DNA of 64,000 nt from Pyrococcus sp. ST04. Lineage in GTDB: Archaea; Methanobacteriota_B; Thermococci; Thermococcales; Thermococcaceae. The stretch lies in assembly GCF_000263735.1 (NCBI RefSeq), contig NC_017946.1, forward strand, positions 289,348 through 353,347. The letters run 5' to 3'. Positions 44,534-52,291 of the stretch are shown here, in pieces (within the stretch, counting starts at the first letter, position 1; every line of letters starts with the position of its first letter). Made by a program: the position numbers and the translations under genes. The notes beneath the pieces were generated by a model. It was not told the DNA's origin. It did no database searches and saw nothing but the letters and a program-made list of their open reading frames with translations.

Positions 44534-47395
44534 ATGCCAGCAAAAGGTAGGATAATTAGAGTTACAGGTCCTCTGGTTGTTGCGGATGGGATGAAAGGTG
44601 CAAAGATGTATGAGGTTGTAAGGGTAGGAGAGCTTGGTCTCATAGGAGAAATAATTAGGCTGGAGGGGGATAAGGCGGTAATTCAGGTTTACGAGGAAAC
44701 TGCTGGTTTGAGGCCCGGTGAACCTGTTATGGGAACAGGTTCTTCACTTAGCGTGGAACTTGGGCCTGGATTGCTGACATCAATATATGATGGTATCCAA
44801 AGACCTCTAGAAGTTCTCAGAGAGAAAAGCGGCGATTTTATAGCTAGAGGTATCACCGCCCCAGCCCTCCCTAGGGATAAGAAGTGGCATTTCATACCCA
44901 AGGTTAAGGTTGGAGATAAGGTTGTTGGAGGAGATATTATTGGTGAAGTTCCAGAGACGAGCATAATAGTTCATAAAATCATGGTACCCCCAGGGATTGA
45001 AGGTGAGATCGTTGAAATAGCTGAAGAAGGGGAATATACCATCGAAGAAGTTATAGCAAAAGTGAAAACCCCGAGTGGGGAGATAAAAGAGCTCAAAATG
45101 TATCAGAGATGGCCTGTGAGAGTAAAGAGACCATATAAAGAAAAGCTTCCTCCTGAGGTTCCCCTCATTACGGGCCAAAGAGTTATAGACACCTTCTTCC
45201 CGCAGGCTAAGGGTGGAACCGCGGCCATACCAGGTCCATTTGGGAGTGGAAAGTGCGTTGATGGAGAGACTTTAATTCTAACTAAGGAGTTTGGACTTAT
45301 CAAGATAAAGGATCTGTATGAGAAGCTTGATGGTAAGGGGAAGAAGTTCGTTGAAGGAAATGAAGAGTGGACTGAGCTTGAAGAACCAATCACAGTATAC
45401 GGATACAGAGATGGAAAAATTGTCGAGGTCAAGGCGACCCACGTCTACAAGGGTTACTCCGCAGGAATGGTTGAGATAAAGACGAGAAGCGGAAGGAAAA
45501 TAAGGGTAACTCCAATTCACAAGCTGTTTACTGGTAAAGTTACGGAGAGTGGACTTGTACTTGAAGAAGTCATGGCAATGCACTTAAGGCCCGGTGACAG
45601 GATAGCAATCGCAAAGAAAATTGACGGGGGAGAATACGTTGAATTGAACTTTGAGAGTGAGATTGTTCCTAAGGTTCTTGATGAGAAACTGGCAGAATTC
45701 CTAGGATACATTTTTGCTATTGGTAGTATAACACCAGATGGTATCATAATCAGGGGAGATGAGGGTGTTCTTGAGAGGATAAAGAAGCTTACTGCAGATA
45801 TCTTTGGAACGAACGAAGTAATAATCGACAGAGAGAACAGCATCTTAATTAACCAGGAAGAGATAGTTAGATTTTTAACTGACCTTGGGATTTTGGGAAG
45901 ACTAATACCAAAAGAGCTCCTCTTATCTCCACCTAGTGTTGTAGAAGCATTTCTTAGGGCCTATCTAGGAACCATTGGAGAACACAAGGGAGATAAAATT
46001 GAGGTTGTCACAGGTTCTATGGAGCTTGTCGCTAGTTTGTCCTACCTCCTCGCAAAGGTCGGCCTTGAGGCCATTATTGAAGACGATAGAATTGTAGTTC
46101 TCGAGAAATCGAGTGATGGTTCAGTTCCGGTTGAAATTGGTGAGACTCATGGAGTCTTAAGCTACGAGCAGTTCAAGGATCTTGCTGAGGCTATTGGCCT
46201 TAAGGAGGTTGCAGAAAATCACTTAACACATGTCGTCTTTGATGAAGTCGTTGAAGTAAAGTACATTCCTGAGCCTCAAGAGGTTTATGATGTCACAACA
46301 GAAACCCACAACTTTGTAGGAGGTAACCTTCCTACGATTCTTCACAATACGGTCACTCAGCACCAGCTTGCAAAGTGGAGTGATGCTCAGGTTGTAGTCT
46401 ACATTGGTTGTGGCGAAAGAGGAAATGAGATGACGGACGTTCTCGAGGAGTTCCCGAAGCTAACCGATCCAAATACTGGGAAACCCTTGATGGAGAGAAC
46501 GGTTTTAATAGCAAATACTTCAAATATGCCCGTAGCCGCTAGAGAAGCCTCAATTTACACGGGAATAACGATAGCTGAGTACTTCAGAGATATGGGATAT
46601 GACGTGGCTTTAATGGCAGATTCAACTTCAAGATGGGCTGAAGCACTGAGAGAAATTTCTGGAAGACTTGAAGAGATGCCTGGTGAAGAAGGTTATCCAG
46701 CTTACCTGGCATCAAAACTTGCTGAATTCTATGAGAGAGCGGGGAGGGTACTAACGCTAGGTAGCAAACCAAGAATTGGAAGTGTGAGTGTTATCGGTGC
46801 AGTCTCACCACCCGGTGGAGACTTCTCAGAGCCAGTAGTTCAGAACACACTGAGGGTTGTCAAAGTATTCTGGGCACTCGATGCAGATCTTGCTAGAAGG
46901 AGGCACTTCCCAGCAATAAACTGGCTTACAAGCTACTCGTTATACGTAGATTCTGTGCAAGGATGGTGGCATGAGAATGTTGACCCAGAGTGGAGAAAGA
47001 TGAGAGATAGAGCAATGGAACTGTTGCAAAAAGAGGCTGAACTTCAAGAGATAGTCAGGATAGTTGGTCCAGATGCTCTCCCAGAGAGGGAAAGGGCAAT
47101 ACTTCTTGTTGCAAGGATGCTCAGAGAGGATTATCTCCAGCAGGATGCCTTCGATGAAGTGGACACCTATTGTCCACCAAAGAAACAGGTTACCATGATG
47201 AGGGTTCTCCTTAACTTCTATGACAAGACCATGGAGGCAATAAGCAGAGGGGTACCCTTAGAAGAGATTGCAAAGTTGCCAGTTAGAGAGGAAATAGGTA
47301 GGATGAAGTTTGAGCCTGATGTCGAGAAAATTAGGGCTCTCATTGATAAGACAAATGAGCAGTTTGAGGAGTTGTTTAGGAAGTATGGGGAGTGA
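44534..47395 (+). CDS. atpA: A-type ATP synthase catalytic subunit A, intein-containing precursor
   Basis: A 953-residue precursor. The extein part is 588 residues, the normal length for archaeal subunit A. Removal of residues 241-605 joins GPFGSGK to [10 protein letters not shown] and so rebuilds the P-loop. The non-homologous A-type insert and the catalytic Glu region ([16 protein letters not shown]) are present, as is the nucleotide-contact [15 protein letters not shown]. Unspliced protein cannot bind ATP, so splicing is needed for activity. The ribosome binding site GAGGTGA lies upstream. The stop overlaps the region of the B start. Confidence 0.96.
45254..46348 (+). mobile_element. VMA intein with decayed homing endonuclease motifs
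   Basis: A 365-residue intein. The first residue is Cys ([10 protein letters not shown], block A), block B is TPIH, block F ends THNFVGGN, block G is ILHN and the +1 residue is Thr, so all splicing residues are present. The central region has the DOD endonuclease layout. In block C the motif reads LGYIFAIGS and in block [11 protein letters not shown]: the acidic metal ligand expected before the last Gly is Ile in both. The endonuclease should therefore be inactive while splicing is kept. The insertion point, in the P-loop between Lys and Thr, is the known VMA site of Pyrococcus and Thermococcus. Confidence 0.9.
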
Positions 47396-49457: not shown

Positions 49458-49539
49458 ATTCTTTTTGTGTTTATGTAGGTTATTGTGTAGGCAAATTGCT
49501 TAAATATTTCCTTTTTCAATCTTCTTCTGGTGAGGAAAG

Positions 49540-50307
49540 GTGGGAGAATACTTTATTGAGCCTGGGTTAGATCCTCGAAAAGATCATGTTCTATATAAAG
49601 ATGAAGAGCATATGGTTGTTTATCTTGGAACTCAGGAAGGAGGAATGGACGTAGATGTTAACAGTTACTTGATAGTAAGTAGGGGAAGAGGGATTTTAAT
49701 TGATCCTGGAGGGTACAAGATATTCTCGAAAGTGTTGGCTAATATTTCCAAGTACATAGACCCTAGAAACATAGATTACATCTATATGTGCCACCAGGAT
49801 CCAGATGTTGCTGGAAGTATCCCCCTTTGGAGGGAAGTTAGTGATGCAAAGATAATAGTTCACTGGCTCTGGGTTAGGTTCCTTCCACACTTCGGCTTTG
49901 AAAACATTGGAGGATATGCACATGAGCTCCAAGACGAAGGGGAAGTTATGAACTTTGGAGCGACAACTCTAGAGTTCATACCAGCGCATTTCCTTCACAG
50001 CCCAGGTCATTTTACGATCTACGACCATAGGAGCAAGTTTTTATTTACCGGAGACATAGGAATTTCCTTCCCTGAAGAAGGATATCTTGTCGTTGAAAAT
50101 TTTGAAAAACACGTTCAATACATGAGGCCTTTACATGAGAGACTCATGGCAAGTAATAAGGCCTTGAGAATTTGGGTGAGCAAGGTTAGACACTTGGATA
50201 TTGAAGCAATTCTCCCCCAGCATGGAGCCATAATACCAAGAAAATACGTAGGCAGGTTCTTTGACTGGCTGGAAAACCTAAAGGTGGGCGTTGACCTTAT
50301 GAGGTGA
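49540..50307 (+). CDS. ODP-like diiron metallo-beta-lactamase-fold protein, putative oxygen sensor
   Basis: A 255-residue protein with the beta-lactamase fold of flavodiiron proteins but no flavodoxin domain. Metal ligands can be read: His85-x-Asp87-x-Asp89 (HQDPD in place of HxExDH; the last His is Val90), His153 or His157 (FLHSPGHF), Asp172 (FTGDIG) and His228 (PQHGA). This matches the oxygen-binding diiron protein (ODP) group, which senses O2 for chemoreceptors in Treponema. It is followed five bases later by a soluble MCP-like protein, the expected partner. The GTG start at 49540 follows GGTGAGG. A TATA (TTAAATATTT) lies at about 49500. Confidence 0.75.
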
Positions 50308-50312
50308 GGGAA

Positions 50313-51080
50313 ATGAACCTCAGAAACATAGAGAAGGCTTCCAATGCTTTGGCTCAGTCCTTGAGGATAAAAACTTCAAGCAAAGAAGCTAGCAAAATTG
50401 TTGAGGAGCTTGCAGAAGAGATAAGCGGAAAGTTCATGGAGAACAATACAATGATCCTTGAGAACATTGAAAAGCTATCCCAAGTAATGGAGGAACTTGA
50501 GAAGTTTAGAAGAGAATTTTTGCCGTTTTTCCAGAAGTTTGAAGTTTTTGCCAGGGAGTTCAATACTCTAGTACAAAATCTTGAATACGTCTCAAAAATT
50601 AGCGATTCTATAGCGAGTGTAGCAAAGCAGACAAACTTAGTTGCTTTAAATGCTTCGATAGAAGCTGCGAGAGCTGGGGAAGCAGGAAGAGGGTTCGCTG
50701 TCGTCGCGGATGAGATAAGAAGGATGGCTGTTCAGACGATGAACCTTGCTAAGGAAATCAAAGATTTTAACTCCAGGGTGATGGCACAGCTTGATGCCCT
50801 TAGGGATGCTTTGGAAGTAATGGACAGAATAAAAGAGGGAACAGAGATTCTTGGAAGGGACATAGAGATGATCGTTGAGATAAGCAACGTCCTCAGTGGT
50901 ATTTCAAAAGAACAAGAAGAGTTTATAAACGACATCAAGAGGCTTAGTGGCATAGCACTGGCATTAAGGAAGTTTGCTGATATGCAGGATAAGTACAATA
51001 AAGAACTCGCTTCTCTTCTCAGGCTAATGGTTAGTGAATATTCTAAGGAGCAACTTAACGAGGAGGGTAGTGTAATATGA
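50313..51080 (+). CDS. Soluble methyl-accepting chemotaxis-type signalling protein
   Basis: A protein of about 255 residues, wholly alpha-helical, with no TM segment and no sensor domain of its own. The hairpin tip (KQTNLVALNASIEAARAGEAG, then RGFAVVADEIRRMA) is the conserved region where receptors contact CheA and CheW. The flanking helices form the coiled-coil signalling domain. ATG 50313 follows GAGGTGA. Because it lacks an input domain and lies directly after an ODP-like gene, I infer that the ODP protein is its ligand-sensing partner. No che genes are in the window. It overlaps alaX by four bases. Confidence 0.82.
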   Translation: MNLRNIEKASNALAQSLRIKTSSKEASKIVEELAEEISGKFMENNTMILENIEKLSQVMEELEKFRREFLPFFQKFEVFAREFNTLVQNLEYVSKISDSIASVAKQTNLVALNASIEAARAGEAGRGFAVVADEIRRMAVQTMNLAKEIKDFNSRVMAQLDALRDALEVMDRIKEGTEILGRDIEMIVEISNVLSGISKEQEEFINDIKRLSGIALALRKFADMQDKYNKELASLLRLMVSEYSKEQLNEEGSVI

Positions 51081-52291
51081 CCGAGAGAATGTATTATAAG
51101 GATCCCTATTTAAAGGAGGCTGAGGCCACTATTGTTGAGGTTAGGGAAGAAGGGGAGAAAGTTGCAATAAAGCTTGATAAAACAATATTCTATCCGGAAG
51201 GTGGAGGCCAGCCAGGGGACAGGGGAAAAATAATTGGAGAGCAATTTGAAGTCTTAGTTGAAAACACTATTGAAAAAGCTGATGGGATCTGGCATATTGG
51301 GAGTCTGAAAGGAGAGATTCCAGAAAAAGGGGAAAAAGTTAAGCTGCAACTGGACTGGGATTGGAGATACGAGAACATGAGAACTCACACTGGGCAACAC
51401 ATCCTCTCTGCGATTCTCAAGAAGCTCTATGACTTAGACACATCGGGATTTCAGATCTTTGAGGATCATGCCAAGATAGAAGTCAATGGAGAAGTTACAT
51501 GGGAAATGATTGAGAATGTCGAGATTGAGGCGAATAATATAGTTCTCCAGGATGTTCCTGTGACCATAGAGGAGTACAAGTATCTCCCAGATGACATAGC
51601 AAGAATCCTCAGAAAACACGTAACTAAGGTAAAGGACAAGATCAGGATTGTGAAAATCGGAGACATTGATGTAACTCCCTGTGGAGGAACCCACGTAAAG
51701 TCAACGAGGGAAGTTGGGCTGATAAAGGTCATAAGGTTTTACAAGAAGTCAAAGGGAACTTGGAGGATAGAGTTTGTATGTGGTAAAAGGGCTATAAAGA
51801 AGCTCAATGAGATCTTAAGGGATTACTGGACATCTCTTGACCTAATGCCAAATAAAAACCCACCGCTCTCTGAGAGGGTAAGAGAAGTCTTGAAGTCGAT
51901 TGACGAACTCGAAGAAAAGTTCGATAGTCAGCGGAAGGAACTGTGGAAATGGAAGGAACAGGCACTATTAGGAAGGAGTTGGGAGGTTGGACACTACAAC
52001 GTGGTGACTTTTGTTGAGGAATGGGAAATGAAAGATGCACAGGCATTTGCCGTTGATTTCGTGAAGAATAACCCGGGAACGATAGTCATTCTAGCGAGTA
52101 ATGACTACGTAATATTCGCAAGGAATGAAGAAGTTCCTGTCTCAATGAAAGAGCTGTTGCAGAAGGTCATAGATGAGCTTGGAGGTAAGGGAGGAGGAAC
52201 AGATAACCTTGCAAGGGGTAAAATAGAGGCTGAACCCGAGGACATAATTGATGTTGCTTTGGAAAAGCTAAAGGAGATGCTCGAGACCTAG
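51077..52291 (+). CDS. alaX: Alanyl-tRNA editing protein AlaX, long form
   Basis: A 404-residue trans-editing protein that removes Ser (or Gly) from mischarged tRNA-Ala. The N-terminal beta domain contains YPEGGGQPGDRG. The zinc-binding editing site is HTGQH and CGGTH. A coiled coil and a DHHA1-type C-terminal domain ending in GGKGGGTDNLARG follow, which makes this the AlaX-L form. The ATG overlaps the end of the MCP gene. The 3' end overlaps the convergent PP-loop gene by 24 bases. A functional link to the ODP-MCP pair is not evident. Confidence 0.92.
   Translation: MTERMYYKDPYLKEAEATIVEVREEGEKVAIKLDKTIFYPEGGGQPGDRGKIIGEQFEVLVENTIEKADGIWHIGSLKGEIPEKGEKVKLQLDWDWRYENMRTHTGQHILSAILKKLYDLDTSGFQIFEDHAKIEVNGEVTWEMIENVEIEANNIVLQDVPVTIEEYKYLPDDIARILRKHVTKVKDKIRIVKIGDIDVTPCGGTHVKSTREVGLIKVIRFYKKSKGTWRIEFVCGKRAIKKLNEILRDYWTSLDLMPNKNPPLSERVREVLKSIDELEEKFDSQRKELWKWKEQALLGRSWEVGHYNVVTFVEEWEMKDAQAFAVDFVKNNPGTIVILASNDYVIFARNEEVPVSMKELLQKVIDELGGKGGGTDNLARGKIEAEPEDIIDVALEKLKEMLET

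Follow-up and report, generated by a model that had tools for sequence, protein, structure and literature searches.

A predicted oxygen-binding diiron protein and a soluble chemoreceptor form a che-associated cassette with an EarA-like promoter box in Pyrococcus sp. ST04

Introduction

The closest described system is that of Treponema denticola, in which an oxygen-binding diiron protein (ODP) and the receptor TDE2496 influence CheA (PMC7666581). That ODPs are coupled to chemoreceptors (MCPs) in the signal transduction of both bacteria and archaea has already been published, as quoted in a paper citing that work. The main text of a survey of archaeal chemoreceptors (PMC9680633) mentions neither Pyrococcus nor a lactamase partner, and a literature search on aerotaxis in Pyrococcus gave nothing relevant. 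For the regulation of motility, a tandem EarA motif, A(C/G)(C/G)TACA(T/C), has been described at archaellum promoters of Thermococcales (PMC10665913); the published EarA work leaves targets beyond arl open.

The window analysed here is a stretch of 64,000 nucleotides of Pyrococcus sp. ST04 (NC_017946.1, positions 289,348 to 353,347 of the forward strand), and plain coordinates refer to it. A sequence-only reading of this DNA had suggested that an ODP-like sensor and a soluble chemoreceptor act together here, as they do in Treponema, and that they might do so independently of chemotaxis. The pairing is supported by Pfam, PDB and Foldseek matches, by the arrangement of related loci and by a tree of MCPs. 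We consider it likely (probability about 0.8) that ODP-I, the product of the first gene, and the soluble MCP work together as a cytoplasmic sensor that feeds into chemotaxis, and that an EarA-type box ties expression of the two genes to that of the motility genes. What this adds to the published picture is the regulatory box, the che-linked pattern of the cassette and a second ODP paralog, ODP-II.

Results

The first gene encodes a predicted ODP

Both open reading frames of the sequence-only reading were confirmed at 49540-50307 and 50313-51080. The features of the coding region are as follows.

49540..50307, + strand: ODP-I, a predicted diiron sensor of beta-lactamase fold (PF19583, PDB matches, AF2 and Foldseek, ligand columns)
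50313..51080, + strand: soluble MCP of 255 aa, predicted antiparallel helical hairpin (PF00015, AF2, tree of MCP cores)
50607..50756, + strand: MCP signalling tip, residues 99-148, with Glu123 at the turn (residues compared with those of the genome's four other MCPs)
51077..52291, + strand: alaX-type alanyl-tRNA editing gene (NCBIfam AlaXM, 1.9e-57; follows atpD in cassette-free genomes)

ODP-I (255 aa) starts with GTG at 49540 and stops at 50307. It matches the Pfam family ODP (PF19583) with 242.4 bits (E=4.6e-72; family cut-off 27.2) and also the general Lactamase_B family. The Pfam search showed a stand-alone beta-lactamase fold with the flavodoxin domain absent, confirming the earlier assignment of a domain of the flavodiiron protein (FDP) type without flavodoxin. 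The top solved relatives are the ODPs of T. denticola (6qnm, 6r9n) and Thermotoga maritima (6qrq, 6qwo) with E values around 1e-60 (6qnm, 3.4e-63; 6qrq, 3.1e-59), and FDPs follow far behind. The AF2 model has a mean pLDDT of 94, and its ten best Foldseek matches are all ODP chains with TM scores of 0.84-0.91 (0.91 for 6qwo), compared with 0.68 for the T. maritima FDP. The HMM and structure comparison with the Treponema ODP, which had been proposed as a check, thus assigned the protein to the ODP family and fold.

Residues H85, D87, D89, H153, D172 and H228 align with the ODP ligand positions, and each is conserved with at most one exception among 143 ODPs; H150 is likewise invariant. As the bacterial set was retrieved through HQDPDV, invariance of this motif among its members derives partly from selection. 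The genome's own FDP carries HTEPDH, relative to which HQDPD represents an E to D and an H to V exchange. HQDPD had been described as an altered ligand set. It is indeed present and HxExDH is missing, but the alignment revealed HQDPDV in the T. denticola and T. maritima ODPs as well, and for this reason it is, on the sequence evidence, the canonical ODP motif and not an odd variant. ODP-I falls outside the definition of an FDP, as it has no flavodoxin and carries HQDPDV in place of HxExDH. Judged by these comparisons, gene 1 encodes a bona fide ODP, whose two-iron content and binding of O2 or Fe would be expected from the T. denticola and T. maritima homologues.

It is conceivable, although we rather doubt it, that the pair senses the iron or redox state (or NO or H2O2) instead of O2, by the same route through MCP and CheA. 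The bacterial ODP is said, in the title of the 2019 work of Muok, to be a sensor of Fe(II) and oxygen, Pyrococcus is strictly anaerobic, the related FDPs reduce both NO and O2, and the ligand set would be compatible with any of these ligands. On the other hand, ODP-I has the surroundings of the site in common with the O2-binding T. denticola protein, and sequence does not discriminate between these signals.

The second gene encodes a predicted soluble MCP of the ODP-linked class

If gene 2 starts with the ATG at 50313, the gap to gene 1 is five bases, as given in the sequence-only reading; an alternative GTG start at 50304 would instead produce an overlap of 4 bp. The product matches MCPsignal (PF00015, E=1.6e-27). 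It shows no transmembrane segment (maximal Kyte-Doolittle value over 19 residues 1.03) and no sensor or extra domain in the Pfam search, which agrees with the earlier description of an MCP-like protein lacking both. According to the AF2 model it forms a plain antiparallel hairpin of helices 3-120 and 122-252, and its tip, QTNLVALNASIEAARAGEAGRGFAVVADEIRRMA, is nearly identical to the tips of the other four MCPs of the genome. The best PDB sequence match is 3g67/3g6b (E 5.5e-17), which we take to be T. maritima TM14.

In a tree of signalling cores, archaeal and bacterial ODP-linked MCPs formed one group against the other MCPs with a support of 98/100, and the genome's own other MCPs fell outside this group. 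Placing the MCP with other thermococcal MCPs instead gave a poorer tree that the AU test did not reject (p-AU 0.11), and in both the ODP and the MCP tree the archaeal sequences sit on a long branch. The C-terminal arm fits that of the bacterial ODP partners (median 129), as opposed to 154-166 in the host's other MCPs. The N-terminal arm is about 36 residues shorter than in bacterial ODP-linked MCPs, which we count against the main reading. Taken together, the sequence data characterize the gene 2 product as a soluble, hairpin-shaped MCP that belongs with the ODP-linked receptors; contact with the ODP and modulation of CheA would be carried over from T. denticola.

ODP-I and the MCP behave as a portable cassette

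Among 75 Thermococcaceae genomes that were at least 90% complete, 29 encode ODP-I; the MCP was found in all 29 of these and in none of the others. Thus, the two genes do co-occur in relatives, where their separation would have spoken against the proposed pairing. In 27 of the 29 the pair occupies one site between atpD and alaX, while nearly all cassette-free genomes have nothing but a short spacer between atpD and alaX. In the remaining two (G001 and G074) the pair has been relocated with alaX still adjacent. Both the direct junctions and the relocated pairs with their alaX indicate that alaX was the original neighbour and that odp-mcp is the piece that was inserted or lost. ODP-I and the MCP therefore behave as one portable cassette. 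The placement of alaX in one transcription unit with the pair was correct insofar as it lies on the same strand and overlaps the MCP gene by 4 bp; since it adjoins atpD directly where the cassette is absent, alaX is a neighbour by position only and stands outside the ODP-MCP module.

Both cassette genes are under strong purifying selection, with dN far below dS. Relaxed selection on the MCP of G056 (branch 0.32) was considered and rejected: its truncated core explains the branch, and dN/dS is normal. In a search of 115 genomes of the phylum all ODP matches lay within Thermococcaceae. The nearest 80 bacterial ODP loci belong to Thermotogota, Synergistota, Aquificota, Spirochaetota and others, and in about 59 of them the ODP gene is followed, in the same order and within 200 bp, by a gene for a soluble MCP of 227-339 aa.

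Two further observations concern the neighbourhood of the cassette. At L084:7796-9037 (G025) and L070:9133-10362 (G056), the gene for an additional soluble MCP has been inserted between an EarA-like box and ODP; its product has about 410 aa, including an N-terminal domain of about 140 aa without a recognised match. In the window, the open reading frame for subunit A of the A-type ATPase (953 aa; 44534-47395) contains an apparent intein after GPFGSGK.

The ODP-I promoter carries an EarA-like tandem box

Upstream of ODP-I two regulatory features were recognised.

49473..49492, - strand: EarA-like tandem box; the reverse complement of ATGTAGGTTATTGTGTAGGC is GCCTACAC-AATA-ACCTACAT, with a 12-bp period and an exact match to RCCTACAYN4ACCTACAY
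49493..49509, + strand: predicted BRE/TATA-like core promoter AAATTGC-TTAAATATTT (from sequence; conserved beside the box where ODP directly follows atpD)

Cassettes directly behind atpD have in common TGTAGG-N6-TGTAGG upstream of ODP-I, which on the other strand reads RCCTACAY-N4-ACCTACAY, followed by a BRE/TATA-like stretch. An EarA-like box was present at 28 of the 29 ODP-I loci; the relocated cassette of G001 carries it and that of G074 does not. In G025 and G056 the box is situated in front of the inserted extra MCP. Cassette-free atpD-alaX junctions and ODP-II operons showed no such box.

The genome of Pyrococcus sp. ST04 contains a single further exact match, located upstream of the first archaellin gene. 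Eight Pyrococcus genomes yielded 12 exact matches, six at ODP and six upstream of the first archaellin gene, whereas simple arithmetic gives about 0.06 matches expected by chance. When one mismatch was allowed, most matches in these eight genomes were found at ODP, arlB0, the che divergon or an MCP. With two mismatches a control pattern was nearly as frequent, and hence only close matches were counted. The earA gene itself lies beside arlB (PF07381, 3.4e-33).

The box in the ODP promoter thus matches the motif of the archaellum activator EarA and may represent an EarA site, whose effect could be activation or repression. It is, however, inverted relative to arlB0 and abuts the BRE, so that it departs from the canonical EarA orientation and spacing. 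This inversion and the lack of a spacer to the BRE would fit a tentative alternative, to which we attach the smaller weight, namely that the box is the site of another regulator common to motility genes or a promoter feature of other use. Against it, the sequence is exactly the published motif with the same 12-bp tandem period, and the box co-occurs with earA and arlB0.

Other EarA-like boxes were seen outside the cassette. One tandem box lies in the genome's own che divergon between the cheR operon and a divergent MCP-cheW pair (L069:6950-7240), and the MCP at C1:642 kb also has one, which makes these genes candidates for an EarA regulon beyond arl.

Presence of the cassette follows the che system

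The earlier statement that no che genes lie near the ODP-MCP pair was locally true, but the genome carries a full che cluster at a distance of about 200 kb. This cluster (C1:548-560 kb) comprises CheW, an MCP, CheR, CheY, CheB, CheA, two CheC, CheD and another MCP, so the proposed genome search for cheA, cheW and cheY recovered all three. Further MCPs are located at 642 and 1728 kb, giving four MCPs besides gene 2, and the archaellum operon with earA is situated at about 601 kb. With the che system complete and the archaellum operon, including earA, also present, a role free of chemotaxis is not needed for this genome.

Canonical CheA/CheW was detected in 30 of the 75 genomes. Of these 30, 27 carry the cassette, compared with 2 of the remaining 45 (Fisher 8e-15). 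When phylogeny was taken into account with a tree built from atpB, atpD and alaX, 5-6 independent pairs of genomes pointed the same way and none the opposite way, which is borderline (p 0.03-0.06). Across genomes, the presence of the cassette follows the che system. The exceptions are three che-positive genomes without the cassette and two genomes, G044 and G056, with the cassette but without che. G056 is a complete genome in which archaellins are present and che is absent. Its MCP begins at residue 100 and has lost residues 1-99, the whole N-terminal hairpin arm, while its ODP is intact. In the draft genome G044 (96% complete) both cassette genes are intact, che genes and archaellins were not found, and a gene located beside che in the sister genome is also missing; the motility island has been either deleted or left unassembled.

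The suggestion of a function without chemotaxis is not supported, given the CheA, CheW, CheR, CheB, CheY, CheD, two CheC and four other MCPs of this genome, the association of the pair with che and its archaellum-type promoter box. Accounts that place the module outside chemotaxis, for example as an O2 scavenger or a metal-regulated factor with a vestigial MCP, could appeal to the intact genes of the G044 draft and to the che-independent paralog ODP-II. We regard them as improbable in view of the che association, the conserved CheA/CheW-binding tip, the EarA-type box and the truncated receptor of the che-null G056. It is more improbable still that gene 1 encodes an ordinary metallo-beta-lactamase-fold hydrolase without diiron sensing that lies beside an MCP by accident: the fold is common to hydrolases and the Lactamase_B family is matched, but ODPs are the best relatives by both sequence and fold, the ODP ligand set is present and adjacency to a soluble MCP is kept from Thermotogota to Spirochaetota.

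Some che genes of the related genomes deserve separate mention. In one finished genome CheA is split over two frames (G021:C1:539311-541670), owing to a sequencing error, a frameshift or a pseudogene, which bears on the choice of this strain as a model of chemotaxis. G054 (L074:1905-4704), G016, G018, G027, G030, G046 and G059 encode a second CheA-like kinase that is divergent, with 33-35% identity to the canonical CheA. Searches of five of these genomes (G016, G018, G030, G046 and G054) recovered neither canonical CheA/CheW nor any MCP. In G054 the kinase gene is preceded by a gene of CheY type and by an exact match to the EarA-like box.

A second paralog, ODP-II, is independent of che

ODP-II was detected in 26 of the 75 genomes, 17 of which are che-null, and showed no association with che (Fisher 0.62). 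It is 43-46% identical to ODP-I and 48-50% identical to the T. maritima ODP, and in the ODP tree it joins ODPs of Aquificota/Thermodesulfobacteria, apart from ODP-I, with modest support. Its operon (e.g. L072:5186-7066 and L076:5196-7136) encodes a protein of about 105 aa, a protein of about 264 aa and ODP-II, with no MCP. The 264-aa partner occurs in the same 26 genomes; it is a two-part protein with a weakly START-like N-terminus, for which we found only weak START-like Pfam hits and neither a solved relative nor a Pfam family. A link of ODP-II to the CheA-like kinase, to which it is near in G054, was dropped, the two being far apart in G059.

The relatives thus do possess an ODP independent of che, but it is this other paralog, which has partners of its own. 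We lean slightly towards the view that Thermococcales run two ODP systems, a che-dependent ODP-MCP cassette with an EarA box and a che-independent ODP-II operon without an MCP. If this holds true, oxygen or iron taxis would be part of the archaellum regulon, and ODP-II would be a signalling or protection module of a type without description in the literature searched.

Discussion

The reading that we prefer, a cytoplasmic chemotaxis module of ODP-I and its soluble MCP, draws on sequence for family membership, ligand set, signalling tip, cassette behaviour, dependence on che across genomes and promoter box. Metal content, binding of O2 or Fe, contact between ODP and MCP and regulation of CheA are inferred from the T. 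denticola and T. maritima homologues. By this analogy, ODP-I would hold two irons and bind O2 or report the iron or redox state, and its Fe/O2 state would alter the contact with the cognate MCP. The tip of the MCP would join CheA/CheW, probably within membrane arrays, and shift the activity of CheA, whereupon phosphorylated CheY would bias archaellum switching. The EarA-type box would express the module together with the motility genes. In a strict anaerobe such a module plausibly serves the avoidance of oxidized water, with the direction of the response a presumption.

ODP-MCP coupling has been characterised in bacteria. Here it appears as a clean, portable cassette of two genes in Pyrococcus and Thermococcus, archaea that are hyperthermophilic and strictly anaerobic. 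Some members of the group are genetically tractable, and che-null and cassette-free relatives provide natural knock-outs. The common EarA-type box predicts a single regulon of oxygen or iron sensing, che genes and archaellum.

Compared with known systems, the module resembles most closely those of T. denticola (TDE2498/TDE2496; 6qnm, 6r9n) and T. maritima (6qwo, 6qrq), with which it has the ODP fold and the ligand residues in common. In most of the bacterial relatives, as in Pyrococcus, a gene for a soluble MCP without sensor or transmembrane segment lies directly behind odp; a che system in the genome is a further common feature. Differences lie in the identity of ODP-I to the T. denticola and T. 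maritima proteins, 42-45%, and in the archaeal host; unlike the bacterial systems, the Pyrococcus cassette has a shorter N-terminal MCP arm and an EarA-type box and is placed behind an A-type ATPase operon. With FDPs (the genome's own FDP and T. maritima TM0755) ODP-I has the beta-lactamase-fold diiron domain in common, but it lacks flavodoxin, carries HQDPDV and not HTEPDH, and is much less similar to them. The soluble chemoreceptor 3g67/3g6b is, like the gene 2 product, a soluble hairpin, with low identity beyond the tip. Finally, the EarA archaellum promoters of Methanococcus and Pyrococcus furiosus show the same tandem motif near BRE/TATA and have earA beside the arl operon; in the putative site at ODP-I the motif is inverted and directly abuts the BRE.
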